64,000 nucleotides of DNA from Streptomyces griseomycini (GTDB lineage Bacteria > Actinomycetota > Actinomycetes > Streptomycetales > Streptomycetaceae). The notes beneath the pieces were generated by a model. The model made no database searches. It worked only from the letters and a program-made list of their open reading frames with translations, and was not told the origin of the DNA. Of the stretch, positions 41,132-64,000 are shown one piece after another. Location of the stretch: contig NZ_JACHJI010000013.1 of assembly GCF_014203535.1 (NCBI RefSeq), positions 124,001-188,000 on the forward strand, given 5' to 3'. Position 1 is the stretch's first letter, and every line of letters begins with the position of its first letter. The translations under genes and the position numbers were made by a program.

Positions 41132-41225
41132 CCATTGTGCGGGCGGCGGACAGGCGTACTGCGCAGCCCCGTCGTTTTCCCCACGCAGTGGGCACAGCGG
41201 CGGCCGGCGGGTAAAGTGCCCTGCC

Positions 41226-42333: not shown

Positions 42334-43313
42334 TCACGCGGACGCGAGCAGCGGACGCCACCAGTCCGCGTGGCGCTCGTACCACTGGGCGGTCTCGGCC
42401 AGGGCGGCCGCGAAGTCGGTGCGGGGCCGGTATCCGAGTTCGGCGGTGATCTTGCCGTGGTCGACCGCGTAGCGCCGGTCGTGCCCCTTGCGGTCCTCGA
42501 CGTGTTCGATCCGCTCCGGGCCCGCGCCGCACAGGGCGAGCAGCCGGTGTGTGAGCTCCAGGTTGGACAGCGGGGTGCCGCCCCCGATGTTGTAGACCTC
42601 CCCCGGCCGGCCCGACACGCGGACGAGTTCGACGGCCCGGACGTGGTCGTCGACGTACAGCCAGTCGCGCTCGTACCGTCCGTCGCCGTAGAGCGGGACG
42701 GTGCCGCCGGACAGCAGGCGGGCCAGGAAGTGCGGGATGAGCTTCTCCGGGTGCTGGTGGGGCCCGAAGTCGTTCGAGCAGCGGGTCACCCGGACGTCCG
42801 GTCCGTGCGTGCGGTGATGGGCCAGGGCGATCAGGTCCGAGGCCGCCTTCGACGCCGCGTACGGCGAGGTGGGCCGCAGGGGATCGCTCTCCTTGGCGGC
42901 CCCCCCGGGGGGAGGGAGCCGTACACCTCGTCGGTGGAGACGTGCACGAAGGTGCGCACGCCGTGGCGGAGCGCGGCGTCGAGCAGCACCTGGGTGCCCA
43001 GCACATTGGTGCGGGTGAAGGCGCCGCCGTCGGCGATGGAACGGTCGACGTGCGACTCGGCGGCGAAGTGCACGATCTGGTCGTGGCGTCGGGCCAGCGC
43101 GTCCACCAGGGACGCGTCGCACACGTCGCCCTGGACGAAGGTGAGGTCGGGGTGGTCGCGCACCGCGTGGAGGTGTGCGAGGCTGCCGGCGTAGGTGAGT
43201 TTGTCGAGGACGGTCACCGCCGTGCCCCCGGGTCCTCGGGGCGACAGGAGGTGGCGTACGTAGGCGGAGCCGATGAAGCCCGCCCCGCCGGTGACGAGGA
43301 TCGCTGCGTTCAT
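42334..43313 (-). CDS. rfbB: dTDP-glucose 4,6-dehydratase, interrupted by a 1-base frameshift
   Basis: Would make dTDP-4-keto-6-deoxyglucose, the precursor of the amino-deoxyhexose. The first frame (ATG at 43313) gives ILVTGGAGFIGSAYVRHLLS through HVSTDEVYGSLPPGG. The second resumes with AAKESDPLRPTSPYAASKAASDLIA (catalytic YxxxK) to the natural end …DWWRPLLASA. The break is in a run of seven C and six G on the plus strand at 42900-42912; one more base restores a full-length protein of about 326 residues. No other damage is seen. AcbB-like by context. It overlaps rfbA by ATGA. Confidence 0.85.
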
Positions 43314-44377
43314 GGGGTGAGGTACACCTTGCTGTGGTCGCCGATCACCAGACGGTGAGCTTGCGGAAGACGGGGGGCCGGGCCCACGACGGCGCCGCGG
43401 CCGATGAGGGACGCCTCGATGCGGGACGCCCCCTCGACCTGCGCGCCGCGCAGCAGGACGGAGTACTCGACGGCACTGTCCTCGACCCGGCAGTCCTCCC
43501 CGATGGAGGTGTACGGGCCGACGCTGGAGTTGCTGACGACGGCGCCCGCGCCGATGACCACCGGGCCGACGACGCGTGACCCGCGCACCACCGCGCCCTC
43601 GGCCACCCGGACCCGGCCGATCAGCGTGCTGTGCGCGTCGACCTTGCCCTCGATCCGGCCCTCCAGCCCGTCGAGGACGTGGCGGTTGACCTCCAGCATG
43701 TCCTCCGCGCTGCCGGTGTCGCGCCAGGGCCGGGTGGTGGTCTCGGCGCGCACGCACAGCCCTTGGTCGACCATCCACTGCACGGCGTGGGTGATCTCCA
43801 GCTCGCCGCGTGCCGAGGGGGCGATGGCGCGCACCGCCTCGTGCACGGCCGGGCTGAAGGCGTACACGCCGATGAGGGCGAGCGCGCTGCGCGGAGTGTC
43901 GGGCTTCTCCTCCAGGCGCAGCACGTTCCCTTCGGCGTCGACCTCCGCGACTCCGAACGCGGAGGGGTCCGCTACGGGGGTCAGCAGCAGCCGGGCCGCC
44001 GCGGCGTCGGCGGCGGCAAGACGCACGAAGTCGGTGACCCCCTGCGGGAGGTAGTTGTCGCCCAGGTACAGCAGGAAGTCGTCGTCGCCGAGGAAGTCGC
44101 GGGCGATGCGCACCGCGTGCGCGAGGCCGAGCGGGCGGGACTGTTGCAGGTAGGTGATGCGTAACCCGAACTCTGCACCGTCACCGGCCAGTTCGCGGAT
44201 CTCGCGGCCGTGCGACCCCACGACGACGCCGACTTCCCGGATGCCCGCCGCGACGAGGGAGTCCAGCGCGTAGAACAGCACGGGTCTGTTGGCGACGGGG
44301 AGCAGCTGCTTGGCGCCGGTGTGCGTGAACGGCCTCAGTCTGCTGCCGGTTCCACCTGCCAGGACCAGGGCCTTCAC
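43310..44377 (-). CDS. rfbA: Glucose-1-phosphate thymidylyltransferase, long StrD/AcbA type
   Basis: A 355-residue enzyme making dTDP-glucose. The nucleotidyl-transfer loop is VKALVLAGGTGSRLRPFTHTGAKQLLPVANRPVL. FLLYLGDNYLPQGV and LEEKPDTPRS follow, and the last 110 residues are a left-handed beta-helix. This long form (about 355 residues versus 290 for RmlA) is typical of antibiotic sugar clusters such as strD and acbA. The GTG start has GGAGG 5 bases upstream; sequence before it is not family-like. It is the first gene of the leftward pair and divergent from the aminotransferase. Confidence 0.93.
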   Translation of the reverse strand: MKALVLAGGTGSRLRPFTHTGAKQLLPVANRPVLFYALDSLVAAGIREVGVVVGSHGREIRELAGDGAEFGLRITYLQQSRPLGLAHAVRIARDFLGDDDFLLYLGDNYLPQGVTDFVRLAAADAAAARLLLTPVADPSAFGVAEVDAEGNVLRLEEKPDTPRSALALIGVYAFSPAVHEAVRAIAPSARGELEITHAVQWMVDQGLCVRAETTTRPWRDTGSAEDMLEVNRHVLDGLEGRIEGKVDAHSTLIGRVRVAEGAVVRGSRVVGPVVIGAGAVVSNSSVGPYTSIGEDCRVEDSAVEYSVLLRGAQVEGASRIEASLIGRGAVVGPAPRLPQAHRLVIGDHSKVYLTP

Positions 44378-44636
44378 CTCGGCCTCCGCGGGGGCGGACC
44401 GGTCGGGGGGCGTTTTCTCACAGGTCTCTCCTCGCATGAGAGGCGTGGCGTCGCCGTGGGCACATCGACTCAAGCAGACTGCCGCGCCCCCTCGCAACAA
44501 TTTTCTGAAACGATCCGCAAAGTCTTGCAGCCGTCTGTGTTCAAGTGTTTGACTCAAGTCGAACAGCCAACCGTGGTGTGTCACACCGCAGTTCGCCGGT
44601 GATCGCGTACAGCCGGTCCGACGAGCAGGGACAGCG
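44378..44636. promoter_or_regulatory. Divergent promoter region of the inhibitor cluster
   Basis: A 259-base, relatively AT-rich region driving rfbA-rfbB to the left and the long operon to the right. At 44493-44530 it holds CGCAACAA, CTGAAACG, CCGCAAAG and CTTGCAG in order. CTGAAACG-N11-CTTGCAG (44505-44530) is nearly the same arrangement as at the secreted amylase (N12) and shares words with malE/malR and the protein-inhibitor gene. Inference: MalR-type or similar LacI control links inhibitor production to maltodextrin supply. Confidence 0.55.
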
Positions 44637-45929
44637 ATGACAGGTTTACGGCAGACCCAGCACCTGGCACGGGAGGCCCGGCATCTGGCGCCGGGCGCTT
44701 CCGAGGAAGCCGTTCACGGACGCCGGGTGTTCGCCGAGGGGCACGGTCCCGTGCTGACCGACCTCGACGGCAACCAGTACCTCGACTTCGCCGCCGGCAC
44801 CCTCACCCAGTCCCTGGGCCACGGGCACCCGGAGGTGGTCGAGGCGCTCACCGCCCAGGCCCGCCGTCTGTGGAACGTCCACGACAGCGCCACTCCGGAC
44901 CGCGCCGGCCTGCTGGACCTGCTCGCCAGGCTGCTGCCCGAACGGCTCGACACCTACGCGTTCTTCTCCACCGGCGCGGAGGTGGTCGAGGCCGCACTGC
45001 GGGTCGTCCAGGCGACCGCGCCGCCGGGACGCAACCGGATCGGCGCCCTGCGGCACGGCTTCCACGGCAAGACCATGGGGGCCAGGATGCTCGTGCACTG
45101 GGACATCGGCCACCAGGCGTTCAGCGGCAACAGCGTGCTGGGCTACAGCCCTTACTGCTACCGCTGCCCCCTGGGGCTGGAGTACCCGTCGTGCGACGTG
45201 CGCTGCGCGACGCTGGTGCGCCGGCACATCGCCGAGAAGCCCAACGTCTCCGCGCTGGTCTTCGAACCCGTCCTCGGCGCGGCGGGGGTCGTCGTGCCGC
45301 CGCCGGGTTACTGGGAACGCATCGCGGACGCCTGCCGGGAGGGCGGCGTCCTGCTCGTCGCGGACGAGGTGCTCACCGGCGGCGGACGCACGGGGGCCTT
45401 CCTCGCCAGTGACCTCTTCGGCGTCGAACCGGACCTGGCGATGCTGTCCAAGGGCACCGCGAGCGGGTTCCCCTTCGCCGTTCTCGCCGGCCGTGCGGAG
45501 CTGCTGCGCAGGCCGGAAGCGGCCATCTCGGGGGCGTACGCCTCGACGTACGCGAGCAACCCGCTGGGCATCGCCGCCGCCCGCGCCACGCTCGAGGTCG
45601 TCGAGCGCGACCGGCTGATCGACCGCGTACGCGTCCTCGGCGAGATCATGGAGGACCGGCTGCGCGTCCTGGAGTCCCGCTTCGACCGGCTGGGCCAGGT
45701 GCGCGGCCTCGGACTGCTGTGGGGCCTGGAGTTCGTCACCGATCCCGCCGCCCGCACACCCGCGCCGGAGACGGCCCGGGCCGTCTACACCACGGCCCTG
45801 GACCTGGGACTGCGCACCTCCCTCGGAGGCCACATCCTGCGCCTGGCCCCGCCGTTCACACTCGACGAGGCGCTGCTCGAGGAGGGTCTGCGGCTGTTGG
45901 AGAAGGCCCTCGAACGGGTGATCGCGTGA
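44637..45929 (+). CDS. PLP-dependent sugar aminotransferase, class III (AcbV-like)
   Basis: A 430-residue class-III aminotransferase. The fold signature is LTDLDGNQYLDFAAGTLTQSLGHGHPEVVEAL. The cofactor Asp is in LLVADEVLTGGGRTGAF and the PLP lysine in MLSKGTASGFPFAV. Two Cys pairs around CYRCPLGLEYPSCDVRC may bind metal. By context it would aminate dTDP-4-keto-6-deoxyglucose to dTDP-4-amino-4,6-dideoxyglucose, the nitrogen donor unit of an acarviosyl group, as AcbV does. First gene of the rightward operon; its stop overlaps the ATPase start (GTGA). Confidence 0.88.
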   Translation: MTGLRQTQHLAREARHLAPGASEEAVHGRRVFAEGHGPVLTDLDGNQYLDFAAGTLTQSLGHGHPEVVEALTAQARRLWNVHDSATPDRAGLLDLLARLLPERLDTYAFFSTGAEVVEAALRVVQATAPPGRNRIGALRHGFHGKTMGARMLVHWDIGHQAFSGNSVLGYSPYCYRCPLGLEYPSCDVRCATLVRRHIAEKPNVSALVFEPVLGAAGVVVPPPGYWERIADACREGGVLLVADEVLTGGGRTGAFLASDLFGVEPDLAMLSKGTASGFPFAVLAGRAELLRRPEAAISGAYASTYASNPLGIAAARATLEVVERDRLIDRVRVLGEIMEDRLRVLESRFDRLGQVRGLGLLWGLEFVTDPAARTPAPETARAVYTTALDLGLRTSLGGHILRLAPPFTLDEALLEEGLRLLEKALERVIA

Positions 45930-46972
45930 TCGTGGCGGAGCGCCTCGTCAAGGAGTTCCGGCTGGCCGAACGCAAACCCGGCCTGCTCGGCAGCCTCTCC
46001 ACCCTCCTCACCCGCCGCCACCGCGTGGTGCGCGCGGTCGACGACGTCTCCTTCGAGATACCGGCCGGCACCAAGACGGCCTACATCGGCGCCAACGGGG
46101 CCGGCAAGTCGACCACGATCAAGATGCTGACCGGCATCATGACCCCCACCTCCGGCCGCTGCACGGTCGCCGGCCTGGAGCCGTACCGGCACCGGCAGCG
46201 CAACGCCCGCACCATCGGCGTCGTCTTCGGCCAGCGCAGCCAGCTGTGGTGGGACCTGTCGGTGCCGGACTCCTTCCGCATCCTGCGCCGCGTCTACGAC
46301 ATCCCCGAGCCGGTCTACCGGCGCAACCTCGACCTGTTCCGCGAGCTCCTCGACATCGACGCGCTGGGTCCGACCCCCGTACGGCAGCTGAGCCTCGGCC
46401 AGCGCATGCGCGCCGAGATCGCGGCGAGCCTGCTGCACGACCCCGCCGTCCTGTTCTGGGACGAGCCCACCATCGGCCTCGACATGGTGCTCAAGGACGC
46501 GGTGCGCCACCTGGTCAACCGCGCCCACCGGGAGCTGGGCACCACCGTGGTGCTCACCAGCCACGACATCGCCGACATCGGCGCGATCTGCGACAGCGCC
46601 CTGGTCGTCGACCACGGCCGGGTCGTCCACCAGGGGACCCTGAAGGACCTGCTGCGCACCGCCGACCACCGCTCGGTCGTCTTCGACCACCGGGACGGCA
46701 CCGCGGCCGGTACCGTCCGCGCCCGCATCGAGGCCGGTCTGCCGGGCGTGCGCGCCACACCGGACGACGGCGGCCGCATCCGCGTCGACTACCCGGCCGG
46801 CCGCTACACCTCCCGGCAGGTCCTCACCTTCCTCCTGGACCACTTCGACCTCGCCGACTGGTACGCCCCCGAACCCGGCCTGGAGGACGTGCTCCGCAAG
46901 ATCTACGGCCGCGCACGCGTTCCCGGCGACACACCCGACGGGGCCGGCCGTACACCTGACGGTGCCGCATGA
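45926..46972 (+). CDS. ABC transporter ATP-binding protein (AcbW-like exporter)
   Basis: A 348-residue ATPase. Walker A is YIGANGAGKSTTIKML, the signature is QLSLGQRMRAEIAASLLH, Walker B is AVLFWDEPTIGLD and the switch is LTSHDIADIG. A C-terminal extension of about 100 residues is typical of ABC-2 exporter ATPases. It is followed by two overlapping permease genes, as in acbWXY. Likely exports the finished inhibitor. The GTG start overlaps the aminotransferase stop. Confidence 0.9.
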   Translation: MIVAERLVKEFRLAERKPGLLGSLSTLLTRRHRVVRAVDDVSFEIPAGTKTAYIGANGAGKSTTIKMLTGIMTPTSGRCTVAGLEPYRHRQRNARTIGVVFGQRSQLWWDLSVPDSFRILRRVYDIPEPVYRRNLDLFRELLDIDALGPTPVRQLSLGQRMRAEIAASLLHDPAVLFWDEPTIGLDMVLKDAVRHLVNRAHRELGTTVVLTSHDIADIGAICDSALVVDHGRVVHQGTLKDLLRTADHRSVVFDHRDGTAAGTVRARIEAGLPGVRATPDDGGRIRVDYPAGRYTSRQVLTFLLDHFDLADWYAPEPGLEDVLRKIYGRARVPGDTPDGAGRTPDGAA

Positions 46973-47778
46973 CCGCCCGCCTGCGCCGCTACACGCCGTT
47001 CGCCACCAGCGGCCTGCAGTCCCTGCTGCAGTACCGCTCGATGTTCGCGATGACCGCGATGACCGCGGCCGCCGGCGCGGCGGTGACCGTCTTCCTGTGG
47101 CGCGCCGTGTACGCGGGCACACCCGGCCGCGGACCCGGCGGCTTCACCGTGGAGGACATCACCACCTACCTGCTGGTGGCCCAGATCCTGCAGGTGCTGC
47201 ACACCAACCGGGTGGACGACGAGGTCGCGGCCGAGGTGTACCGGGGTGACGTCGCGGTCATGCTGGTGCGCCCCGTCAGCTACCCGGTGATGCGGTTCTT
47301 CGCCTGCCTGCCCGTGGTGGGGGCCAACGCCGTCCTGGTCGGCCTGCCGGTCCTCGGCCTGTTCGCGCTGCTCGTCCCGCTCACCGCGCCCCGGCCGGCG
47401 GACCTGCTGCTGTTCACCGTCTCCACCGCCCTGTCGGTGCTGCTGGCGTTCTGTGTGAACCTGCTGACCGGCATGACCGGTTTCCTCACCACCAACACCT
47501 GGGGCGTGCGGATGGTCAAGCAGAGCGTCGTCGCCTTCTTCGCCGGACAGCTCGTGCCGCTCGCGCTGATGCCGGGCCCGCTGGCCGCGCTCGCGAAGGT
47601 CCTGCCCTTCCGCGGCATGGTCGACGGTCCGCTGACCCTGCTGCTCGGCCGCTACGACGGCTGGACGGACGCCGCCGGGGTGCTCGTCCAGCAGGCGGCC
47701 TGGGCGGCCGGGCTGTCGCTGCTGTGCGCCGCGCTGTGGCGCGCCGCCCTGGGACGGCTGGAGGTGCTCGGCGGATGA
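46969..47778 (+). CDS. ABC-2 type permease (AcbX-like)
   Basis: A 269-residue membrane protein with six hydrophobic segments (for example AMTAMTAAAGAAVTVFLW, GLPVLGLFALLVPLTA and LSVLLAFCVNLLTGMTGFLT). It belongs to the ABC-2/DUF990-like permeases. It starts by ATGA overlap with the ATPase and ends by ATGA overlap with the second permease, so the three are translated together. Confidence 0.87.
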   Translation: MTARLRRYTPFATSGLQSLLQYRSMFAMTAMTAAAGAAVTVFLWRAVYAGTPGRGPGGFTVEDITTYLLVAQILQVLHTNRVDDEVAAEVYRGDVAVMLVRPVSYPVMRFFACLPVVGANAVLVGLPVLGLFALLVPLTAPRPADLLLFTVSTALSVLLAFCVNLLTGMTGFLTTNTWGVRMVKQSVVAFFAGQLVPLALMPGPLAALAKVLPFRGMVDGPLTLLLGRYDGWTDAAGVLVQQAAWAAGLSLLCAALWRAALGRLEVLGG

Positions 47779-48575
47779 CGCGCACCATGATGCGGTACCT
47801 GCGGCTGGCCTGGTTCCTGGGCGGGGTGGGCCTGCACCGGCTGGCCGCGTACCGCATGGACTTCGTGCTCGGCGCGGGCGCCTTCCTGGTGCGGGTCGGC
47901 ATCCAGACGGCGGTCGTCGGCCTCGTCTTCCGGCAGGTCCCCGCCGTGGGCGGCTGGTCGTACCACGAGGTGCTGTTCCTGCTGGGGTTCTCCCTGCTGC
48001 CGCGCGGGCTCGACCACCTCTTCACCGACCAGTTGTGGGAACTGGGCCGCAAACTGGTCCAGCGCGGGGAGTTCTACCGCTACCTCGTCCGGCCGGTCGA
48101 CCCGCTGTTCTCCTTGCTGTCGGAGCGCTTCTTCCACCCCGACGGGCTCGGCGAACTCGTCGTCGGCGCCGTCCTGGTGGGATACGCGGGGAGCGAGCTC
48201 GGCCTGTCGCTCAGCCCCGTGCAGTGGGTGCTGGCGCCCGTGCTGGTGCTGTGCGGGGCGCTGCTGCACACCTCGGTGAAGCTGCTCTTCGCCTCCCTGT
48301 CCTTCTGGACGGTGACGAGCATGCCCGCGATGTACGCGGCCAACCAGGTGTCGGAGTTCTCCGCCTACCCCCTGGACATCTACCACCCCTCGCTGAAGGC
48401 CCTGCTCACCTGGGTCCTGCCCTTCGCCTTCACCGCCTACGTGCCCTGCGTCTACCTGCTGAGCGGCGGGACCGGCCTGCTCGGCTGGCTGCCCGTGGTG
48501 ACCGCCGGCGCCCTGGCCCTCGCGCTGACGGTCTGGCGCCGCGGCGTCAACCGCTACGAAATGACCGGAAGTTGA
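47775..48575 (+). CDS. ABC-2 type permease (AcbY-like)
   Basis: A 266-residue membrane protein, partner permease of the same exporter. It has about six helices, including FVLGAGAFLVRVGIQTAVVGLVF and LAPVLVLCGALLHTSVKLLFASL, and the family-like GEFYRYLVRPVDPLFSLLSERF segment. The second half of the ABC-2 pair; the ATG at 47775 is fixed by the overlap with the first permease. Confidence 0.87.
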   Translation: MTRTMMRYLRLAWFLGGVGLHRLAAYRMDFVLGAGAFLVRVGIQTAVVGLVFRQVPAVGGWSYHEVLFLLGFSLLPRGLDHLFTDQLWELGRKLVQRGEFYRYLVRPVDPLFSLLSERFFHPDGLGELVVGAVLVGYAGSELGLSLSPVQWVLAPVLVLCGALLHTSVKLLFASLSFWTVTSMPAMYAANQVSEFSAYPLDIYHPSLKALLTWVLPFAFTAYVPCVYLLSGGTGLLGWLPVVTAGALALALTVWRRGVNRYEMTGS

Positions 48576-48582
48576 GCCTGAC

Positions 48583-50052
48583 ATGATGAGAAACGACGAT
48601 CTGGGCCCCTTACTGCGCACCGCCCCGTGGATGCCCGAGGACGGTCGGCGGGCCGAGCGCTTCGAGTGCGTCGACCACGCGGACCTCGGCGCCACCGCCC
48701 GCCTGCTGGTCGTGGCCGCCGTCGGCGGGCCGGCGTCGGGACGGCGCTACTTCGTGCCGGTGCGGTCCGCACCCACGGGGCACGGCGCCGAAGAGGCGCA
48801 CGGAAGCGTCGAGTTCGACTCCGCCGTGCTGGACGCGGTCTGCGCCGGACGCCGGCTGCCCACCGCCCGCGGCGGCCGGGTGCTCTTCCGCGGTGCGGGA
48901 CTCACCGCGCACTCGGTGCGCCGGCTGCCGTTCGAGCGGGGCTGGTCCTCCAACGTGCTGTCCCTGGTGGAGAACGACGGGACTGCCTACGTCCACAAGA
49001 CCTACCGGCGGCTGGACGAGACCGTCCGGGAGCCGGAACTCCTGCGGCTGATGAACGGGACCGGCCGCACCCCCGACTGGGCGGGCGACTACGCCTACGT
49101 CGACCCGGCGGACGGCACCCACCGCCCGCTGGGCGTGTTCTACCGGTACGCCCCCGGAGACGGGATCGACCTGCCGCTGAGACACAGCATGCGGTCCCTG
49201 TGGCCGAAGGTGACCGGCGGACGGGCCCCCGGCTCACTCGACGACGTCGTGCGGGCACACCTGCGCCCGCTCGCGGACAACCTGCGCGACGCCGGGCGCT
49301 TCCTGGCCGGCTTCCACCGCGACCTGGCCGGCCGGCTCGGCCGGGGTCCCGTGCCGCCGTACCCGGTACGGGAGATGCTGGCCCGGGCCACCGCCCGCAC
49401 GGACGCACTGGCCTCGGCGGACATCGACCTGCCCGAGGCCCCGCGCACCGCCGCCTTCACGGCCCTGCGGCAGGAGACCGCCGCGCTGCGGAGCGCCTTC
49501 GACGCCGCCCCGGCGGGGTTCCCCTCGGGGCCGTGCCACGGCGACCTGCACCTGTCCCACCTGCTGTGCCGGCCGCGCGACGACGGAGGCTGGTCGATGA
49601 ACGTCATCGACATGTCCACCCCCGCCCTCGGCCCCGGCGAGGCGGGCTGGGCCGCGCAGTCGCCGGTCCAGGACCTGGTCGCCGTCCAGCGCGCCCTGGA
49701 GTACTTCACCGCCGACGAGGCGGCCTTCGAGAGCGCACGGCGCCTCGGCGTCGACTCCATGGAGACGATGCGGGACGCGCTGGACGGCGCCGGCGACCGG
49801 CCGCCCGGGCAGCGCTCCGTACTGCGCCCGGTCTTCCACGCCGCCGACGTCTGGCGGGCGCACGTGCTGCGGCTGCTCCTCGGACGCACGGTGGACGACC
49901 CCCTGCGCCGGCTGCTGTACCTGGACCGGCTGCTGCACGAACTCGCCTACAACACCGACCACGCCCGCCCCTACCACGCCGCGATCGACCTGCGCCACGC
50001 CCTCGCGCTCGGCGCCCGCACCCCGGCCCCGACCCTCCCAGCAAGGACGTGA
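48583..50052 (+). CDS. Maltokinase/aminoglycoside-phosphotransferase-fold kinase (candidate cyclitol 1-kinase)
   Basis: A 489-residue kinase of the APH fold, closest in layout to actinobacterial maltokinase: an N-terminal cap (about 1-110), then the kinase domain. The catalytic loop is CHGDLHLSHLL (H319, D321) and the metal Asp is D343 in NVIDMSTP, where maltokinase has IDFEGEP. By context (between exporter and GlgC-like transferase) it is a candidate to phosphorylate C1 of the cyclitol 7-phosphate before nucleotide activation, the step assigned to AcbU. It starts 7 bases after the permease and ends 2 bases before the next gene. Confidence 0.75.
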   Translation: MMRNDDLGPLLRTAPWMPEDGRRAERFECVDHADLGATARLLVVAAVGGPASGRRYFVPVRSAPTGHGAEEAHGSVEFDSAVLDAVCAGRRLPTARGGRVLFRGAGLTAHSVRRLPFERGWSSNVLSLVENDGTAYVHKTYRRLDETVREPELLRLMNGTGRTPDWAGDYAYVDPADGTHRPLGVFYRYAPGDGIDLPLRHSMRSLWPKVTGGRAPGSLDDVVRAHLRPLADNLRDAGRFLAGFHRDLAGRLGRGPVPPYPVREMLARATARTDALASADIDLPEAPRTAAFTALRQETAALRSAFDAAPAGFPSGPCHGDLHLSHLLCRPRDDGGWSMNVIDMSTPALGPGEAGWAAQSPVQDLVAVQRALEYFTADEAAFESARRLGVDSMETMRDALDGAGDRPPGQRSVLRPVFHAADVWRAHVLRLLLGRTVDDPLRRLLYLDRLLHELAYNTDHARPYHAAIDLRHALALGARTPAPTLPART

Positions 50053-50054
50053 AC

Positions 50055-53274: not shown

Positions 53275-54194
53275 GCCCGTCCCCTTACGACGTCCTGGTG
53301 GTCGGCGGAGCCGGCGTGGACACCGTCGTCCGCGTCGAGAAACTGGAGGTCCCCCCGGGCGACTCGCTGCACGTGCCTCCGGTGTACGACTACGTCGCGC
53401 ACACCGGCAACGGCGTGGCGCTCGGCTGGCACGCCCTGGGCCTCACCACCAAGTTCATCGACTTCCTCGGCGACGATCCCCAGGGTCACGCGGTGCTCGC
53501 CGCGTACGCCGGGCACGGTCTGGACTTCAGCCACCTGGTGTCCCCGCACGGCACCCCGCGCGGCGTCAACCTGGTCGACGCGCGGGGCCGCCGGTTCTCC
53601 TTCTACGACTCCCGGCACCCCGCGGACCTCCGGCTGCCCCGCGCCTTCTACCTGCCCCACCTGGAGCGGGCGCGCCACGTCCACCTCTCCATCGTGGGGC
53701 ACAACCGCGACCTGTACGAGGACGTCCACCGGCTCGGGGTGACCAGCTCCACCGACCTGCACGACTGGGACGGCGTCGACCCCCACCACCTCACCTACGC
53801 CCTCTCCTCCGACTACGTCTTCATGAGCGCCGCGGCCGTCCACGACCGGCTTCCGGAGGTCCTGCACGGCATCGTCGACGAGGGCCGGGCCCGCTTCGTC
53901 GTGGCCACCGACGGAGCGGACGGCTGCCACGTGCTCGTACGGGGCGAGGCCGGGGTGCGCCACTTCCCGGCCGTGCGGCCGGAGCGGCCCGTCGTCGATT
54001 CCAACGGGGCCGGCGACGCGTTCGTCACCGCGTTCCTCCACGCCCACTTCGAAGGGCGGCCGGTGGAGGAGTGCGTCCTGGCCGGATCGGTGTCCGGGGC
54101 CTTCGCCTGCGGTGCCGCCGGCACCCACACCGAGTTCATCGACCTGCCCGGCCTGCGCGCGGCCTGCGCCCGCGCGCAGGCCGCGGCGGAGTGA
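53271..54194 (+). CDS. PfkB/ribokinase-family kinase (AcbK-like, product 7-kinase candidate)
   Basis: A 307-residue carbohydrate kinase. It begins [18 protein letters not shown], has the [14 protein letters not shown] substrate loop, and ends with the catalytic PfkB signature [20 protein letters not shown] (the Asp of GAGD is the base). In Actinoplanes a kinase of this family, AcbK, phosphorylates acarbose at O7 as self-protection during re-uptake, and context supports the same role here. A general sugar kinase role cannot be excluded. GTGA-type overlap with the upstream gene; the next gene starts 13 bases on. Confidence 0.8.
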
Positions 54195-54207
54195 AGGAGC
54201 CCCGCGC

Positions 54208-57468: not shown

Positions 57469-59558
57469 CCCGCCCCACCGCGCCCGGCTCGTCCCTGCGG
57501 GACCTGGCCCGCGCGCACGGCGTGAGCACCGAGTACGTCACCGACCGCGGTGACCGCGTCACCGTCGCCGCGGACACCCTGGTCGCGGTCCTGGCCGCGT
57601 GCGGCGTGGACGCGAGCACCCCGGACGCCGCCCGGCGGGCCCTGGCCGCCCGGCGTGCGGCGGACGCGGACAGGCTGCTTCCGCCCTGCGTGGTCGTCCG
57701 TGCCGGATCGGCCGCGGGGCTGCGGCTGCCGCCCGGCGCCGAGGCCCGCGTCGCCCTGGAGGACGGTGGCGAGAAAACTCCCGAGGACCCGCTGCCGCCG
57801 GGCGCGCACGTCCTGCACGCCGTGGCGGGCCGGCGGCGGGCGTCCGCTCCGCTGCTGTCGGTGCCCGAGCGCATCCCCGTGCCCGAGCGGCGCGGCTGGG
57901 GCTTCCTGGTCCAGCTGTACTCGGTGCTCTCCCGCAGGTCCTGGGGCATGGGCGACCTGGCCGACCTCGCGGAGCTGGCCTCCTGGTCCGGCCGCGCGCT
58001 GGGCGCCGGCTTCCTCCAGCTGGGGCCGCTGCACGCGGTGGAGCCGGGTCCGCTGCCCGATCCGTCGCCGTACCGGCCGAGTTCGCGGCGGTTCGCGGAC
58101 CCGATGCACGTCCGGGTGGAGGAGGTGCCGGAGTACCGGTACCTGGACCGGGAGGCCCGCCGCGCGGTGGACTCCTGCGCCGCCCGGGCACGGGCCCTCA
58201 ACGAGCGCGTGCTGAGCGGTGGGACGCTGATCGACCGGGAGGTGGTGCGCGCCCTCAAGTTCGAGGCGCTGCGCCATGTGTACCGGGTGCCGGCCCCGCC
58301 CGGCCGCCGTGCGGCCCTGGAGGCGTTCACCGCCCGCGAGGGCGGGGACCTGACGGACTTCGCCACCTGGTCCGCGCTGGCCGAGGTGCACGGCGGCGCC
58401 TGGCGGTCCTGGCCCGAGGGGTTGCGCGACCCGCGGTCGCCGCGGGTGGCCGAGGCCCGCGAGGAACTGGCGGAAGCCGTCGCGTTCCACCGCTGGCTGG
58501 CGTGGATCACCGACGAGCAGCTCGCCGCCGCGCAGCGCGTGGCGAAGGAAGCGGGCATGGACATCGGCCTGGTGCACGACCTGGCGGTGGGCGTCGCCCC
58601 CGAGGGGGCCGACGCCTGGACGCTGCAGCACTGCCTGGCCGGCGGGATGAGCGTCGGGGCCCCACCGGACGACTTCAATCCGCTCGGTCAGGACTGGGGC
58701 CAGCCGCCCTGGCGGCCGGACGCGCTGGCCGCCGAGGGGTACCGGCCGCTGGCCGGGCTGCTGCGCGCCGGCATGCGGCACGCGGGAGCCCTGCGGGTCG
58801 ACCACGTCATGGGGCTGTTCCGGTTGTGGTGGGTGCCCGAGGGCCGGCCCCCGTCCGAGGGGACCTACGTCCGTTACGACGCCGAGGCCATGCTCGGCGT
58901 GCTGCTCCTGGAGGCCCACCGGGCCGGGGCGGCGGTGGTCGGCGAGGACCTCGGCACGGTGGAGCGCGGTGTCCGCGAGGAGCTGGCCGCGCGCGGCGTG
59001 CTCGGCACGTCGGTGCAGCGCTTCGAGTACCTGGGCGGTTCCGAGGGACGGCACGGTCCGCTGCCTCCGCGGCAGTGGCGCAGGAACTGCCTGGCCACGC
59101 TGACCACCCACGACCTGCCGACGACCACCGCATGGCTGAGCGGCGAACACGTCGACCTGCGGGCCCGGCTGGGGCTGCTGACCCGCCCGGAACCGGAGGA
59201 GAGGGCGCAGGCGGCGGCCGAGCGGGACGGCTGGCTGGCGGAACTGCGCCGGCAGGGCCTGCTGCCCGACGCCGACGGCGAGCTGGTCGCCCTGCACCGT
59301 TTCCTGACCCGCACCCCGTCCACCCTGCTCGGGGTCTGGCTGCCGGACGCCACCGGCGACCGCAGGCCCCAGAACCTGCCCGGTACCGCTGACGTGCACC
59401 CCAACTGGAGGCTGCCGGTGGCGGACGGGCAGGGCCGGCCGGTGCCCTTGGAGGACCTGCCCGGCCATCCCCGTGTACAGGCCGTCGCCCGCGTGTTCGC
59501 CGACGGTGAACCGCACGGAACGAAGACCGAGGAGAGAGATGTCAGGCCAGGCCCTTGA
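57465..59558 (+). CDS. malQ: 4-alpha-glucanotransferase (amylomaltase, GH77; AcbQ-like)
   Basis: A 697-residue GH77 enzyme. An N-terminal actinobacterial extension of about 140 residues precedes WGFLVQLYSVLSRRSWGMGDLADL. Catalytic regions: nucleophile in ALRVDHVMGLFRLWWVPEG, acid/base in VVGEDLGTVE and third acid in TTHDLPTTTAW. The 250s-like flexible region GMSVGAPPDDFNPLGQDWGQPPW is intact. It lacks a signal peptide, so it acts inside the cell, where it could supply malto-oligosaccharide acceptors or exchange sugar tails on the product. Overlaps: GTGA with the fusion gene and 20 bases with the cyclase. Confidence 0.92.
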   Translation: MTRPTAPGSSLRDLARAHGVSTEYVTDRGDRVTVAADTLVAVLAACGVDASTPDAARRALAARRAADADRLLPPCVVVRAGSAAGLRLPPGAEARVALEDGGEKTPEDPLPPGAHVLHAVAGRRRASAPLLSVPERIPVPERRGWGFLVQLYSVLSRRSWGMGDLADLAELASWSGRALGAGFLQLGPLHAVEPGPLPDPSPYRPSSRRFADPMHVRVEEVPEYRYLDREARRAVDSCAARARALNERVLSGGTLIDREVVRALKFEALRHVYRVPAPPGRRAALEAFTAREGGDLTDFATWSALAEVHGGAWRSWPEGLRDPRSPRVAEAREELAEAVAFHRWLAWITDEQLAAAQRVAKEAGMDIGLVHDLAVGVAPEGADAWTLQHCLAGGMSVGAPPDDFNPLGQDWGQPPWRPDALAAEGYRPLAGLLRAGMRHAGALRVDHVMGLFRLWWVPEGRPPSEGTYVRYDAEAMLGVLLLEAHRAGAAVVGEDLGTVERGVREELAARGVLGTSVQRFEYLGGSEGRHGPLPPRQWRRNCLATLTTHDLPTTTAWLSGEHVDLRARLGLLTRPEPEERAQAAAERDGWLAELRRQGLLPDADGELVALHRFLTRTPSTLLGVWLPDATGDRRPQNLPGTADVHPNWRLPVADGQGRPVPLEDLPGHPRVQAVARVFADGEPHGTKTEERDVRPGP

Positions 59559-60705
59559 TCGGCTCGAGGGGGTCCGCGAGGACTCCGGAGGCTTCGACCT
59601 GCTGGCGCCGGACGGCACGCGCTACCGTGTGGACGTCACCGACGGGGTGTTCGACCCCCGCAACCCGCTCCTCGCGGGCTACGTGGCGGGACGGCGTGTG
59701 GTGGCCTTCGTCGGCCCCACGGTGGACCGTCTCTACGGCGACCGGCTGCGCGCCTACCTCGACGCCCGGCTGGAGCCGGGCAGCTGGAGCGTCCACACCA
59801 TCGACAGCGGTGAACGGAACAAGACCCTCACGTCGGTGGAGCGGGTGTGCGCCGTCGCCAAGGCGTCCGGCCTGGACCGGCACGGGGTGATGCTCGCCGT
59901 GGGCGGCGGGATCGTCGCGGACGTCGTGGGCTTCGCGGCCTCGATGTACGCCCGCGGCATCCGCTACATCAAGGTCAACACCACCCTGGTGGGACAGGTG
60001 GACGTGGGCGTCGGGGTGAAGACCGGCGTCAACGCCCTGGACTCCAAGAACATGTTCGGCGCCTACCACCCCGCGCACGCCTCGCTCAACGACCCGGCCC
60101 TGCTGGCCACCCTGCCGGTCCGGGAGATCCGCTGCGGCCTCGCGGAGATCGTGAAGATGGCCGTGATCCTCGACTCCGACCTCTTCCGGGCGCTGGAGGA
60201 GCACCCGGACGCCTTCCTGCGTTCCTCCGACGGCGCGCTGGAGACGTACGTGCTGCGCACCTCGATGCGGCTGATGATGGAGGAGCTCTGCCCCAACCTC
60301 CGCGAGCACGACCTCGCCCGGCTCGTCGACTTCGGGCACACCTTCAGCCCGGTGATCGAGACGGCCGGCGGCCACCGCCTGGAACACGGTGAGGCGGTCG
60401 CCGTCGACATGGCCCTGTCGGCACATGTGGCCCGGCTGCTGGGGCTCGTCGACGCGGAGAGCTGCGCGCGCGTGGTGACGCTGCTGCGCCGCATCGGTCT
60501 CCCCGTGTTCGACCCGGCCACCTGCACGCCGGAGCTGATGACGCAGGCCCTGCACGCCTCCTGGCAGCGACGGGGACGCAAGCTGCACCTCGTCGTGCCG
60601 ACCGGCATCGGCAAGGCGGACTTCGTGGAGCGGCTGGAGGACCTGCCTGCCGACGTGCTGCGGGCCGCCCTGGAAGCGCTGGCGCGCGACGGGGGCACGG
60701 AGTGA
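59539..60705 (+). CDS. acbC: C7-cyclitol synthase, sugar-phosphate cyclase (2-epi-5-epi-valiolone synthase type)
   Basis: A 388-residue member of the dehydroquinate-synthase-like cyclases. NAD site and core: GERNKTLTSVERVCAVAKA, VGGGIVADVVGFAASMYARGIRYIKVNTTLVGQVDVGVGVKTGVN. Metal ligands are expected in EIVKMAVILD, FGHTFSPVIE and RLEHGEAVAVDMAL. The position beside a ROK kinase, and the whole cluster, indicate cyclisation of sedoheptulose-7-phosphate to 2-epi-5-epi-valiolone, the entry step to acarviosyl units. A few core residues (KNMFGAYHP; VNTT instead of VPTT) are worth comparing with EEVS, EVS and DDGS subfamilies. AGGAG precedes the ATG. Confidence 0.88.
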   Translation: MSGQALDRLEGVREDSGGFDLLAPDGTRYRVDVTDGVFDPRNPLLAGYVAGRRVVAFVGPTVDRLYGDRLRAYLDARLEPGSWSVHTIDSGERNKTLTSVERVCAVAKASGLDRHGVMLAVGGGIVADVVGFAASMYARGIRYIKVNTTLVGQVDVGVGVKTGVNALDSKNMFGAYHPAHASLNDPALLATLPVREIRCGLAEIVKMAVILDSDLFRALEEHPDAFLRSSDGALETYVLRTSMRLMMEELCPNLREHDLARLVDFGHTFSPVIETAGGHRLEHGEAVAVDMALSAHVARLLGLVDAESCARVVTLLRRIGLPVFDPATCTPELMTQALHASWQRRGRKLHLVVPTGIGKADFVERLEDLPADVLRAALEALARDGGTE

Positions 60706-61076
60706 CCGCCCGCGACGTGGTGAACCTCGACACGCTCCTGCGCGGCAAGGAGCACGACCACGGCGGGCTGGGCACGATCCTCGCGCACCGCCTGTTCGCC
60801 CGCGCCGAAGGCGGCGTGGGAGCGGAGTTCGTCGACATCGCCGTGCTGCCGCCCGGCACGTCCATAGGGCGCCACCGGCACGCCCTGGACCGTGAGACGT
60901 ACGTCGTGCTCAGCGGCAGCGGGCTGATGTACCGGGACGGAGCCGAGTTCCGCGTCGGCGCCGGGGACGTCGTCGTCAACCGCCCGTACGGCGAGCACGG
61001 CCTCGTCAACGACTCGGCCGCCGATCTGTGGCTTCTGGTCTTCGAGGAGGAGCTTCGTGACCATCCCGCGGTCTGA
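60702..61076 (+). CDS. Single-domain cupin, candidate cyclitol-phosphate epimerase/isomerase
   Basis: A 124-residue cupin. Motif 1 is GTSIGRHRHALDRETYVVLSGSG (His, His and Glu metal ligands) and motif 2 is GDVVVNRPYGEHGLVNDS (third His). It overlaps the cyclase by GTGA and the ROK kinase by 20 bases, so it is made together with both. The acarbose route needs a 2-epimerase right after kinase action (AcbO step). I infer this cupin may do that, or stabilise an intermediate; the sequence alone does not prove it. Confidence 0.75.
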   Translation: MTARDVVNLDTLLRGKEHDHGGLGTILAHRLFARAEGGVGAEFVDIAVLPPGTSIGRHRHALDRETYVVLSGSGLMYRDGAEFRVGAGDVVVNRPYGEHGLVNDSAADLWLLVFEEELRDHPAV

Positions 61077-62145
61077 CCGTCCCCCCGCCGGTCCGGCGCA
61101 CCGCGCGGACTCCTGGCGGCCCCACGACGTCTTCACCGTGCTCGACGTGGGAGGCACGACGCTGCGGACCGGGAGCTACGACCCGGTGACGGCGGCCGTC
61201 TCCCGCGTGCGCCGGGTGCCGGTCGAGGGCATGGCCCGTCATCCGGAGGACTCGGTGGCCGGTCTGCAGCGCCGCGTCGTGGACCAGATCGTCCACGAGG
61301 TCGGCCGGCACACCGCGGGGACGGCGCCGCGCGCCGTCGGCGTGGCCTTCGCCGGGCCGATCTCCGCCGGCGGTCTGGTGCTGGCCGCTCCCACGGTGTG
61401 GGGGCGGCGCGGTGACCCGCTGCCGCTGGGGCAGCTCCTGACGGAGCGGACCGGCGTACCGGTCGTGGTGGTCAACGACCTGACCGCCGCCGCCTGGCGC
61501 TACGCGGCGACCGAGACCGAGCCGTTCTGTCTGATCACCGTCAGTTCCGGCATCGGCAACAAGGTCTTCCGGGGCGGGGAGGTGCTGCTGGACGCGGACG
61601 GGCACGGGGGCGAACTCGGGCACTGGGTGTGCGATCCGTCCCCGGGGGCACCGCTGTGCGACTGCGGTGCGCGCGGCCATCTCGGTGCTGTCGCCTCCGG
61701 GCGGGGGGTGCTCGCCGCGGTCCGCCGTGCGGCGGACGCCGACCCGGCCGGTTTCGCCCGGTCCCGGCTGGCCGCGCGCTGCGGCGGCCGCGTGCCCGGC
61801 ATCGACAACCCGGCCGTCGCGGCCTCGGTGCGGGAGGGCGACGAGTTCACCACGCAGGTGCTGCGCGGCACCCTCACGCATCTCGCGCAGGCGATCGGGG
61901 CCGTCTTCACCTCCGTCGGGGTGTGCCGGTACATCGTGATGGGCGGCTTCGCACTGGCGGTAGGCGAACGCTACCGGGAGCTGCTGGTGGGCGAGTTGGT
62001 GAGACTGGGGTGTTTCGGTCTGGACGCGGACGCGGTCGACTCCATGGTGTCGCTCGGCGAACCGGACGACGACCACGGCCTGATCGGTGCCGGCAGACTG
62101 CTGGCCGACCGGATGTCCCGGCCGTCCCCGGCGGGTGCCCGGTGA
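61057..62145 (+). CDS. ROK-family kinase (AcbM-like, 2-epi-5-epi-valiolone 7-kinase candidate)
   Basis: A 362-residue ROK kinase. The phosphate loop is FTVLDVGGTTLRTGSY, catalytic Asp region VVVNDLTAAAWRY, and the ROK zinc/signature region is GHGGELGHWVCD…LCDCGARGHLGAVASGRG. The CxC(x)4 cluster with the preceding His is intact. Next to the cyclase it should phosphorylate the cyclitol at O7, the reaction of AcbM. The GTG start overlaps the cupin by 20 bases; the stop overlaps the SDR gene by GTGA. Confidence 0.87.
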   Translation: MTIPRSDRPPAGPAHRADSWRPHDVFTVLDVGGTTLRTGSYDPVTAAVSRVRRVPVEGMARHPEDSVAGLQRRVVDQIVHEVGRHTAGTAPRAVGVAFAGPISAGGLVLAAPTVWGRRGDPLPLGQLLTERTGVPVVVVNDLTAAAWRYAATETEPFCLITVSSGIGNKVFRGGEVLLDADGHGGELGHWVCDPSPGAPLCDCGARGHLGAVASGRGVLAAVRRAADADPAGFARSRLAARCGGRVPGIDNPAVAASVREGDEFTTQVLRGTLTHLAQAIGAVFTSVGVCRYIVMGGFALAVGERYRELLVGELVRLGCFGLDADAVDSMVSLGEPDDDHGLIGAGRLLADRMSRPSPAGAR

Positions 62146-63065
62146 GCGCCGGGGGCACCCTCGTCGTCGGCAGCGGTTTCGTCGGCATGGGCATCGCGCG
62201 ACGGCTGGCGGCGGCCGGTGAGCCGGTCACCGTCACCTCGCGTCACCGCCCGGAGCACCTTCCGGACCTCCCGGGGTTCCGGTGGCACGCACTGGACGCC
62301 ACCGATTCCGCGGCGTGCGGCCGGCTCGTGGCCCGGCTGGACCCGCGGCGCATCGTCCTCGTGCACGGCCCGTCCGACGTCACGTGGTGCGAGGAGCACC
62401 CGGACCTGGCCGTCGCGGCGCACACCGCCGCGGCCGCCCACTTCGCCGCGCTGGCCGGGGACGCGAGGCTGCTGATGATCTCCACCGACAACGTCTTCGA
62501 CGGATCCCGGCCCGACAACCCCGAGGACGCCCCGGTCTCCCCGGCCAACGCCTACGGCCGCGCGAAACTGCAGGCGGAACGGACCGTGCTCGACGCGGCG
62601 GCGGACGCGGTGGTGCTGCGGGTCAGCCTGGTCTACGGGCACGAGCCCGCGGACGCCGGCAAATGGCTCAACTTCTTCGCCGCGTGCGCGCACCGGCTGC
62701 GGCGCGGCGAGCAGGTCAGGGTGCCGCGGGACCAGTGGACGACCCCGGTGCTGGTGGACGACGTCGCGGAGGTGACGGCGGCCCTGCTGGGCGCCGGCGC
62801 GCCCCTGCCGCCGGTCCTCCATCTGGGCGGGCCGGACCGCGTGGGCCGTGCCGCCTGGGCCTCGGTCGTCGCCGAGACGCTGGGGGCGCCCGCGCACCTG
62901 GTCGTGCCGGTGCCGCGGGCGGCCACGCGGTACGCCTCCCGGCCGGAGAACGCGTGCCTGACCGGCTCCCGTCTCGCCCGGTTGCCGGCCACCGGGGCGA
63001 TCACCGTCCGGGGCGTGCGGGAGGGCGCCCGGTCCCTGGCCCCGGCGTTCACGACGGCACGCTGA
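62142..63065 (+). CDS. RmlD-like extended SDR, candidate cyclitol reductase/dehydratase
   Basis: A 307-residue NAD(P)-binding protein of the dTDP-4-dehydrorhamnose-reductase type. It starts LVVGSGFVGMGIARRLAAAG (GxGFxG variant of the usual GxxGxxG). It continues LLMISTDNVFDGS, catalytic AYGRAKLQAE (YxxxK), VVLRVSLVYGHEP and PVLVDDVAEVTAALLG. A role on the cyclitol phosphate (reduction or dehydration after AcbM/O-type steps) or on a deoxysugar are both possible. GTG start overlapping the ROK kinase; last gene of the tightly packed run. Confidence 0.8.
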   Translation: MSAGGTLVVGSGFVGMGIARRLAAAGEPVTVTSRHRPEHLPDLPGFRWHALDATDSAACGRLVARLDPRRIVLVHGPSDVTWCEEHPDLAVAAHTAAAAHFAALAGDARLLMISTDNVFDGSRPDNPEDAPVSPANAYGRAKLQAERTVLDAAADAVVLRVSLVYGHEPADAGKWLNFFAACAHRLRRGEQVRVPRDQWTTPVLVDDVAEVTAALLGAGAPLPPVLHLGGPDRVGRAAWASVVAETLGAPAHLVVPVPRAATRYASRPENACLTGSRLARLPATGAITVRGVREGARSLAPAFTTAR

Positions 63066-63170
63066 ACACCCCGCCCGGCGCCGCGGGTGACCGCACGTCC
63101 GACAGCGTGCCGGGACACCCGGCCCGCGCGCGGCCCCCGCACACCGTGCGGCCGCGCGCGTCACCCCCGC

Positions 63171-63196
63171 CCGGGCGGCGGACCGCCGCCGCCCGG
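63171..63196 (+). terminator. Hairpin after the SDR gene
   Basis: CCGGGCGGCGG (63171-63181), a 4-base loop and the exact complement CCGCCGCCCGG (63186-63196). It lies about 105 bases past the SDR stop and about 45 bases before the GMC gene, so it may end or attenuate the long operon. Confidence 0.5.
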
Positions 63197-63242
63197 CCCG
63201 TACGACCGCCGCCGTCCGGCGGCGAGACGGTGGAGCAGACGT

Positions 63243-64000
63243 ATGTCACGTACAGGATCGGTGAAGAGCTACGACGTCGTCGTACTCGGCGGAGGTGTGG
63301 CCGGGTGCGTACTCGCCGCCCGGCTGAGCGAGGACCCGGACCGGTCGGTCTGTCTGGTCGAGGCCGGCCGGGACTACGGGCCGCAGGGCGACGGATGGCC
63401 GCGCACGGTGCTCGACGCGCGGCGCCTGCCGCGCGACCACGTGTGGGAGCGGCACGCGGCCGCGCACCGCGTCCGGGCCCGGATCATCGGCGGCTCCTCG
63501 TGCGTCAACGGGTGCTGGAACACCTGGGGCGCCCACGCGGACCACACGGACTGGGAACGGGCGGGGGGCGAGCGGTGGTCGGCGCGGGCCATGGAACCCT
63601 TCCGCCGGGCCGCGGTGGACCATATGGGGCTGCGGCCGGTTCCGGAGAGCGAGTTCTCCGTCTGGAGCAGCGCAGCACTCGATGCGGCCGGCGAACTCGG
63701 CTACCCGCCGGTCGACATGGGCACCTCGGGCGCCCCCGGTTACGGCACTCCGCTCATCAACTCCTTCGACGGTCTGCGCTGGAACGCGGCGTTCGCCTAC
63801 CTCGACCCGGTGCGGGAGCGCCCGAATCCGACGATCGTCGACGCGGCGCTCGTCGACCGGCTGCACGTCGTGCGCGGCCGGGTGCGGGGCGCCGACATCG
63901 TCCGCGGCGGGAAGCGGACCACCCTGGCCGCCGACGACTACATCGTCGCGTGCGGGACGTACGGGTCTCCCGCCGTGCTCCTGCGCAGTGGCCTCGGGCC
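63243..64000 (+). CDS. GMC-family FAD oxidoreductase (partial, runs off the window)
   Basis: The first 252 residues of a glucose-methanol-choline oxidoreductase. FAD dinucleotide motif: YDVVVLGGGVAGCVLAARLSEDPDRSVCLVEAG. The second FAD/substrate block is ARIIGGSSCVNGCWNTWGAHADHTDWERAGG, then YGTPLINSFDGLRWNAAFAYLDP and the start of the GMC signature VACGTYGSPAVLLRSGLG. The usual VNGM(W/V) is VNGCW. The catalytic His domain lies beyond the edge. A GGAG precedes the ATG. It probably belongs to the cluster, as an oxidant of a cyclitol or sugar, but a separate transcript is possible after the hairpin. Confidence 0.88.
   Translation, partial: MSRTGSVKSYDVVVLGGGVAGCVLAARLSEDPDRSVCLVEAGRDYGPQGDGWPRTVLDARRLPRDHVWERHAAAHRVRARIIGGSSCVNGCWNTWGAHADHTDWERAGGERWSARAMEPFRRAAVDHMGLRPVPESEFSVWSSAALDAAGELGYPPVDMGTSGAPGYGTPLINSFDGLRWNAAFAYLDPVRERPNPTIVDAALVDRLHVVRGRVRGADIVRGGKRTTLAADDYIVACGTYGSPAVLLRSGLG

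Follow-up and report, generated by a model that had tools for sequence, protein, structure and literature searches.

A probable acarviosyl gene cluster with its own starch system in Streptomyces griseomycini

Gene content and class of the cluster

The window analysed here is a stretch of 64,000 nucleotides of Streptomyces griseomycini DNA (contig C13, positions 124001-188000) from a genome of 8.66 Mb in 72 contigs; C13 continues for 13.3 kb past the window end. It carries what we judge, with a probability of about 0.85 from sequence comparison, to be an acarviosyl cluster of the acarbose/acarviostatin/trestatin class that possesses its own starch system. The locus is largely ordinary and is a real, nearly complete example of a cluster kind already described. 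Gene calls rest on reading-frame GC bias and on Pfam and NCBIfam profile searches. Gene content, homology, the two mal loci described below, resistance residues and a promoter element are read directly from the DNA; enzymatic steps, import and regulation are inferred.

From 23.5 to 69 kb in window numbering, the genes encode a tendamistat-like peptide, two pullulanase-type amylases, a CBM20 amylase, a LacI regulator, an alpha-glucosidase, MalGFE and MalR, followed by B and A, the divergent series V, W, X, Y, U, S, R, K, I-J, Q, C, J, M and O, and then a GMC oxidoreductase, an AKR and a CBM25 amylase. The letter J is used twice because the published names clash: AcbJ is a HAD phosphatase, here fused to I, and SctJ is a cupin.

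The products of V, W, X, Y, U, S, R, I, J, Q and K are 45-75% alike to their counterparts in comparison genome G359, whose cluster we take, from its gene order, to be acb of Actinoplanes sp. SE50/110. On the plus strand, Pfam matches identify a class-III aminotransferase (V, 44637-45929, 75% to AcbV) and homologues of AcbW, AcbX and AcbY, which comprise an ABC exporter ATPase (W, 45926-46972) and two ABC2_membrane_6 exporter permeases (X, 46969-47778; Y, 47775-48575). These are followed, on the same strand, by an APH-like kinase (U, 48583-50052, 45% to AcbU, the valienol-7-phosphate 1-kinase of Actinoplanes), a GT5-like pseudoglycosyltransferase (PsGT; S, 50070-52148, 59% to AcbS), a GlgC-like cyclitol nucleotidyltransferase (R, 52141-53274, 72% to AcbR) and a PfkB kinase (K, 53271-54194, 48% to AcbK). 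The I-J fusion (54208-57468, plus strand) joins a GT5-like glycosyltransferase (GT; 50% to AcbI) in frame with a HAD phosphatase (54% to AcbJ) that carries the motifs DLDGT and GDxxND, and Q (57465-59558, plus strand) is a GH77 4-alpha-glucanotransferase, 58% to AcbQ. The fusion is 1086 residues long and in frame in 12 of 12 clusters, this one included. An Ala/Thr-rich low-complexity stretch (about 56200-56450) separates its two parts; judged by eye, a stretch of the same form occurs in the S. caelestis fusion and in none of the other 10.

A paired PsGT/GT is thus present (S and I are 52% alike), and a sugar phosphate cyclase, an AcbR-type nucleotidyltransferase and an AcbV-type aminotransferase all lie in the same cluster. 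According to PMC9200736, AcbU and AcbJ act before GDP-valienol is formed, AcbI transfers the amino sugar to maltose and AcbS forms the C-N bond. Because of these step assignments and the acb homologues, we read the gene set as an acarviosyl pathway. An earlier note on this DNA had listed the pathway blocks and named acb and gac as their likeness. The G359 homologues bear out that class, and the listed blocks are all open, codon-biased genes except for the 4,6-dehydratase, which is split between two frames.

Relatives and distribution

The sct cluster of S. coelicoflavus ZG0656 makes acarviostatins (Guo et al. 2012, via PMC8234114). As listed in Table 1 of PMC8234114, whose order we take as gene order, it is arranged Z2-Z1-E2-LacI-E1-G-F-H-MalR-B-A-V-W-X-Y-U-S-R-K-I-Q-C-J-M-O, with similar protein sizes, as is the window from 24 to 63 kb. 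Like the window, sct lacks AcbL, AcbN and AcbO homologues and has an amylase-inhibitor peptide, and SctI (1027 aa), judged by length only, may be a fusion like the one found here. The two loci differ after O, where SctT (464 aa, annotated as unknown) and the peptide Scim stand in the table and the window type continues with the GMC, AKR and CBM25 amylase genes; the inhibitor peptide gene of the window lies beyond Z2. The sct list includes MalGFE-like transporters, a MalR-like regulator and a second LacI regulator. The linkage to malR-malEFG and amylases that the earlier note had pointed out is therefore real and not new, since the published table already shows the same order. The gac cluster of S. 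glaucescens GLA.O, compared here by description, has the letters A V W X Y U S R K I Q C J M O, and amylases and the Gaim peptide nearby, as in the window (PMC5526262, PMC13240717). Like sct, it has two LacI regulators (PMC5526262).

The acb cluster of G359 differs in several respects. Its cyclase belongs to another clade, its AcbM is only 28% alike, AcbL, AcbN and AcbO take the place of J and O, AcbJ is separate from I, and no malEFG match lies beside it in 40 kb. The features of an acb subtype (an AcbC-clade cyclase with AcbL, AcbN and AcbO) are absent from the window. Those of an sct/gac subtype are all found: mal genes, two LacI regulators, Z/E amylases beside B, J and O without AcbL/N/O, and I fused to a phosphatase.

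The order B-A/V-W-X-Y-U-S-R-I-Q-C-J-M-O recurs in 11 other Streptomyces clusters, which excludes a chance arrangement. In these 11, K lies between R and I in six and beside GMC in five; an apparent absence of K from several clusters was rejected, as K stands there with GMC-AKR. Over 22 kb the cluster DNA is 97-98% identical to that of S. caelestis NRRL B-24567. A contig scan by DNA likeness returned 11 relatives; it may well miss others and is no measure of prevalence. PMC13240717 covers 295 Streptomyces genomes and reports such clusters, with one to four amylases next to them, in 12. Among 199 genomes of the genus, 14 (this one included) have a homologue of S, four of them fragmentary (G074) or divergent (G090, G093, G145); so do 3 of 41 relatives, a set that also includes this genome and overlaps with the 199. 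In the Hamadaea family, 5 of 250 genomes have full-length homologues; of the 21 matches there, 14 weak ones (E > 1e-14) were set aside, and those in G410 and G471 cover the first 530 residues only.

Some relatives show other arrangements. The pathway of G003 is split, with W-X-Y-U-S-R-M-O-HAD-K-GMC-AKR on its C7 and a GT with Q-A-B on its C1. G090, G093, G410 and G471 have a single AcbS/AcbI-like GT (42-45%) with R, M and an RmlD-like O, and a cyclase of the 2-epi-5-epi-valiolone synthase (EEVS) type in the same stretch in three of the four. No match to the aminotransferase V was found in their 17-20 kb, and these loci are candidates for other pseudo-oligosaccharides. S. alfalfae XY25 gives three equal-identity matches on three contigs of one assembly, perhaps through assembly redundancy.

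A second maltodextrin locus

On the minus strand, Pfam identifies a MalG-like permease (37778-38662, SctG), a MalF-like permease (38659-39666, SctF) and a MalE-like binding protein of 424 aa (39708-40982, SctH; 44% to MalE on contig C1). The MalR-type LacI repressor (41211-42263, plus strand; Pfam), the SctC1 counterpart, is 76-77% alike to MalR on C1. The second LacI-type regulator (35020-36078, minus strand; Pfam) has 352 aa, as does its counterpart SctC2, and E1 (36066-37751, minus strand) is an open frame for a GH13 alpha-glucosidase-like protein of 561 aa (PF00128, 2.8e-108). The earlier note placed the start of the cluster about 70 bases after malR, and malR indeed ends at 42263, 70 bases from the convergent first cluster gene at 42334.

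The genome contains a second MalR at C1:511912-512946, within a complete pullulanase-amylase-malGFE-malR locus. Compared with the mal loci of seven other Streptomyces genomes (G001, G003, G007, G009, G011, G013, G016), C1 MalE is 80-89% and C1 MalR 93-95% identical, whereas window MalE is 43-45% and window MalR 75-78% identical. Because the C1 locus matches other Streptomyces and that of the window does not, we read the cluster as sitting on a second mal locus while the host keeps its own, and the MalE values led us to reject the window mal genes as the host core locus. The earlier note had suggested that the pathway relies on maltose genes belonging to the host itself, which this second locus, orthologous to those of other Streptomyces, contradicts. 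Among the seven genomes with a C1-type locus, only G003 had an S homologue, its clusters lying elsewhere in the genome.

A single malEFG-malR set, the core maltodextrin regulon of the host, might instead serve both growth and the inhibitor cycle. The direct contact between cluster and malR fits this idea. Window-type MalE is also found without a detected cluster, in G006 (79%), G002 (74%) and G015, G004 and G005 (64-65%), and among the matches listed for the last three there is no other MalR above 70%, so a window-type locus can be a working mal locus. The complete C1 locus with its seven matches, and C1 amylases that lack resistance residues, make the single-regulon explanation quite unlikely in our view, and we favour a cluster-borne mal locus beside an ordinary one. 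Window-type MalE also lies beside the S. alfalfae cluster and in G017, which is 86-95% identical to the window in most of the stretch compared. The consulted portions of the papers on these clusters contained no statement that cluster-borne and ordinary mal loci coexist in one genome.

Amylases and self-resistance residues

Within its interval, which began at B and ended at 64000, the earlier note saw no AcbD/E/Z-type genes. This holds for the interval itself, but amylases flank the cluster on both sides, with Z1, Z2 and the CBM20 amylase E2 to the left and a CBM25 amylase of another type to the right. Z2 (24212-29839, minus strand; Pfam) is a secreted amylase-pullulanase; these coordinates are those of the open frame, the start is provisional, and the catalytic domain begins near 29.36 kb. 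Z1 (29617-32757, minus strand; Pfam) is a secreted pullulanase-type, AcbZ/AcbE-like amylase, 44-46% alike to two AcbZ/AcbE-type proteins of G359. E2 (32909-34696, minus strand; Pfam) is an alpha-amylase with a CBM20 module. Beyond Z2, a tendamistat-like alpha-amylase inhibitor peptide of the Scim/Gaim kind is encoded at 23461-23880 on the minus strand (PF01356, 2.4e-26, and a whole-genome search). A second gene for such an inhibitor lies at C11:65247-65444.

Published resistance changes are His to Asn or Ala in pullulanase-type enzymes, and His/Tyr to Gly with Asp to Thr in alpha-1,4-amylases (PMC13240717). As predicted from their translations, the cluster amylases carry published inhibitor-resistance residues and the C1 copies do not. 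The pullulanase site, located by residue pattern (His, Asn or Ala next to Lys) and not by numbered alignment, is Asn in Z1 (DTAKN) and Z2 (DTVRN) and His in the C1 copy. Among matches at E <= 1e-60, all 19 Streptomyces cluster-linked copies have Asn. Of 11 copies that come from other mal loci, 10 have His, and the lone Asn belongs to G003, which has its clusters elsewhere. E2 has Gly and Ala at the two published sites, where the C1 copy has Phe and Asp, and Gly is found in 7 of 13 cluster-linked CBM20-type amylases versus 0 of 12 others. The amylases of Streptomyces sp. JHA26 resemble those met here: two cluster-linked pullulanases have the His-to-Asn change and one unlinked pullulanase does not, and there are two alpha-1,4-amylases, a cyclomaltodextrin-like amylase and a Gaim-like peptide (PMC13240717). 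JHA26 may be the present strain or a close relative.

Candidate regulatory sites

CTTGCWG is the half-site of MalR and AcrC (PMC5526262). The window has 17 copies where 7.5 would be expected, a number reached in 0 of 100 shuffles, although several of the 17 fall inside genes. Predicted CTTGCAG sites lie in the promoters of A/V, malE and the CBM20 and CBM25 amylases, and a direct repeat of the half-site precedes the CBM25 amylase. The site in the divergent A/V promoter is at 44524-44530 on the plus strand, and TCTTGC is invariant in all eight aligned A/V regions.

The cyclitol module and its cyclase

As judged by homology, the cyclitol module of the window is not orthologous to that of Actinoplanes. 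In a search of 21 stretches of 20-77 kb each (E <= 1e-4), AcbL, AcbN and AcbO of G359 matched only G359 and G462, both acb-type. AcbR is 66-80% alike to its counterparts in non-acb clusters, AcbC 39-42% and AcbM 28-35%. Two further cases lie outside paired acarviosyl clusters: an AcbN/L/O-like set in G496, where S is absent, and an AcbL-like gene (28%) in G410. In place of AcbL/N/O, clusters of the window type have the cupin J (60702-61076; Pfam; as SctJ a proposed 2-epimerase), the ROK kinase M (61057-62145; 28% to AcbM) and the RmlD-like short-chain dehydrogenase/reductase O (62142-63065; Pfam and NCBIfam; as SctO a proposed dehydratase), all on the plus strand here. An alternative cyclitol route has been put forward for sct as a proposal (PMC8234114).

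C (59539-60705, plus strand) is a sugar phosphate cyclase of the dehydroquinate synthase (DHQS) fold, about 40% alike to AcbC. Our tree places 18 cyclases of such clusters in a clade (98/97) outside a group (99/99) of EEVSs and desmethyl-4-deoxygadusol synthases (DDGSs) that contains ten EEVS-like, five DDGS-like and three other rows, with eight DHQS rows for contrast; some joins in this tree are between long branches and may be artefacts. In a smaller, 31-row tree the clade was supported at only 82/80; the present tree has more rows and omits two long branches, the AroB of this genome and the solved DDGS. Mean identity is 70% within the clade and 39% between the clade and EEVS-like rows. The earlier note had named cyclase phylogeny as a check: the enzyme is not placed with DHQSs or DDGSs, two identities that we reject on this placement, nor does it group with EEVSs.

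Two fingerprint sites exist for these enzymes (PMC4426668). All 18 clade members keep the EEVS/DDGS Asp and the three metal-ligand positions (Glu, His, His), and all 18 have Arg in place of the His of K/RHRDG, so that the EEVS fingerprint pair is retained only in its Asp. On the EEVS+DDGS side, 13 of 18 sequences, ValA and AcbC among them, have His at that site, and the five DDGS-like ones have Thr; this count is taken over the whole side because the EEVS-like rows were chosen by their HRD motif, which would make a count of His among them circular. We located the positions of the fingerprint sites by alignment. The tree with its separate clade is what is new in this analysis.

The retained Asp and metal ligands, and the naming of SctC as an EEVS in PMC8234114, argue that the clade cyclase makes 2-epi-5-epi-valiolone, with epimerisation, phosphorylation and dehydration by J, M and O, as in the sct proposal. 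The position of the clade outside the EEVS+DDGS group, read with the long-branch warning, and the Arg replacement speak against this product, which we nevertheless hold to be somewhat probable. A tentative idea, to which we give rather less credence, is that the Streptomyces-type cyclase makes a different stereoisomer such as 2-epi-valiolone, and that the valienol unit evolved twice, with a J/M/O route feeding the same GDP-valienol and C-N coupling; to call the cyclase a 2-epi-valiolone synthase would be a guess. Among 15 of 17 papers found in a literature search, PMC8234114 is the only one on acarbose that names GacC or SctC; the part consulted reports no assay, which does not disprove that one exists elsewhere. 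Osborn et al. (2017) reportedly found authentic EEVS activity for a separate clade, which may or may not be the present one.

The GMC-AKR pair

The interval given in the earlier note stops too early, since three genes follow, partly past the window end. A GMC-family FAD oxidoreductase (63237-64748, plus strand) crosses the window edge at 64000, and an AKR (64908-65855) and a secreted CBM25-CBM25-fn3-GH13 amylase (about 66084-69053) lie beyond it on C13. Among 18 clusters of the window type with flanks read, GMC is near the cluster in 16 and AKR in 15; the GMC count leaves aside G106, G017 and G127, whose contigs end too early. In S. caelestis NRRL B-24567, O is joined to the CBM25 amylase and GMC-AKR is missing: its positions 1-1267 correspond to window 61799-63065 and 1308-4459 to 65903-69055. 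No match to GMC was found in the S. caelestis genome.

The frequency of the pair, and the failure to match either gene in 40 kb of two acb-type clusters, would suit redox steps of valienol formation in place of AcbL and AcbN, as would a 5.4-kb stretch of G145 with a single GT of the kind described above, K and GMC at 43%. This role is doubtful. The otherwise 97%-identical S. caelestis cluster lacks the pair, as does G260 within 52 kb, and the four single-GT loci of G090, G093, G410 and G471 have M, O and R without GMC-AKR in 17-20 kb. An essential part in cyclitol synthesis was rejected on the S. caelestis cluster. In nine clusters GMC-AKR follows K immediately, a position that fits a part in product handling better than one in making the cyclitol. 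Because the pair is missing in S. caelestis, it can probably be dispensed with, and tailoring or recycling of the product is its more likely role.

Near the end of C13, at window-equivalent 72378-77308 on the minus strand, DpgA (610 bits, cut-off 425) and DpgB (186 bits, cut-off 140) lie beside a nonribosomal peptide synthetase (NRPS), which suggests a dihydroxyphenylglycine-type peptide cluster close to the acarviosyl one. Homologues of DpgA, DpgB and the NRPS were not found in 20 kb downstream of the S. caelestis cluster.

The split dehydratase and other contrary observations

Several observations weigh against the reading of the locus as an acarviosyl cluster with its own resistant starch system. 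Gene content does not tell acarbose, acarviostatin and trestatin apart as product. In two Actinoplanes-type clusters the AcbE-position amylases have Ala while the AcbZ-position ones keep His; the second site of E2 is Ala and not the published Thr, and 6 of the 13 cluster-linked CBM20-type amylases lack Gly. The A/V region of S. alfalfae has no exact CTTGCAG. In G006, G015, G004, G005 and the S. alfalfae cluster, MalR is 82-87% alike to C1 MalR and 76-79% to that of the window, and MalE is nearer that of the window despite this.

A further contrary point concerns the supply of dTDP-4-keto-6-deoxyglucose. A, the glucose-1-phosphate thymidylyltransferase (43310-44389, minus strand; rmlA_long, TIGR01208 at 411.6 bits, cut-off 320), is intact, but B, the dTDP-glucose 4,6-dehydratase (42334-43316, minus strand), is frameshifted near 42.9 kb. 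If this is not a sequencing error, AcbB function would have to come from a further RmlB on C1 (434 bits, cut-off 365).

The cluster might then be decaying, its dehydratase truly broken and the strain without acarviosyl product. Relative to the 97%-identical S. caelestis locus, B has two extra bases in a C/G run, and B is one open frame in each of 12 further clusters with this layout (S. caelestis, S. monomycini, S. alfalfae, NK15101, S. litmocidini, S. parvus, S. filamentosus, G206, G189, G102, G061, G017); in the acb-type G462, matches to B were found only in pieces. Homopolymer slips are a frequent assembly error, however, the remaining cluster genes are open and codon-biased, and the RmlB on C1 exceeds its cut-off. 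We regard decay as very improbable and retain the reading of a nearly complete cluster.

Proposed pathway and implications

By homology, A, B and V would make dTDP-4-amino-4,6-dideoxyglucose. C, J, M and O may convert sedoheptulose 7-phosphate to valienol 7-phosphate by a route that is not orthologous to AcbC/M/O/L/N, and U, the HAD domain and R would carry this on to GDP-valienol. The GT part of the I-J fusion is predicted to attach the amino sugar to maltose or maltodextrin, S would form the C-N bond, and WXY would export the product. Because they carry inhibitor-resistance residues, Z1, Z2 and E2 are expected to go on cutting starch outside the cell, while inhibition is predicted for the amylases of competitors and for the C1 copies of the host itself. 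Together with K, Q and E1, the second MalEFG may re-import and recycle acarviosyl-dextrins as a carbophore. CTTGCAG-like sites may be where MalR-type repressors control the mal, amylase and biosynthetic promoters.

If this reading is right, the locus would cleanly illustrate a published idea on acarviosyl producers, in which an inhibitor of starch enzymes goes together with resistant amylases and an importer of their own. With a cluster-borne and an ordinary mal locus in one genome, the carbophore idea becomes testable. The proposed Streptomyces half of the pathway is made more concrete by 18 related cyclases with a common Arg at the position of the His in ValA and AcbC, and by two 97%-identical clusters of which only one has the GMC-AKR pair.

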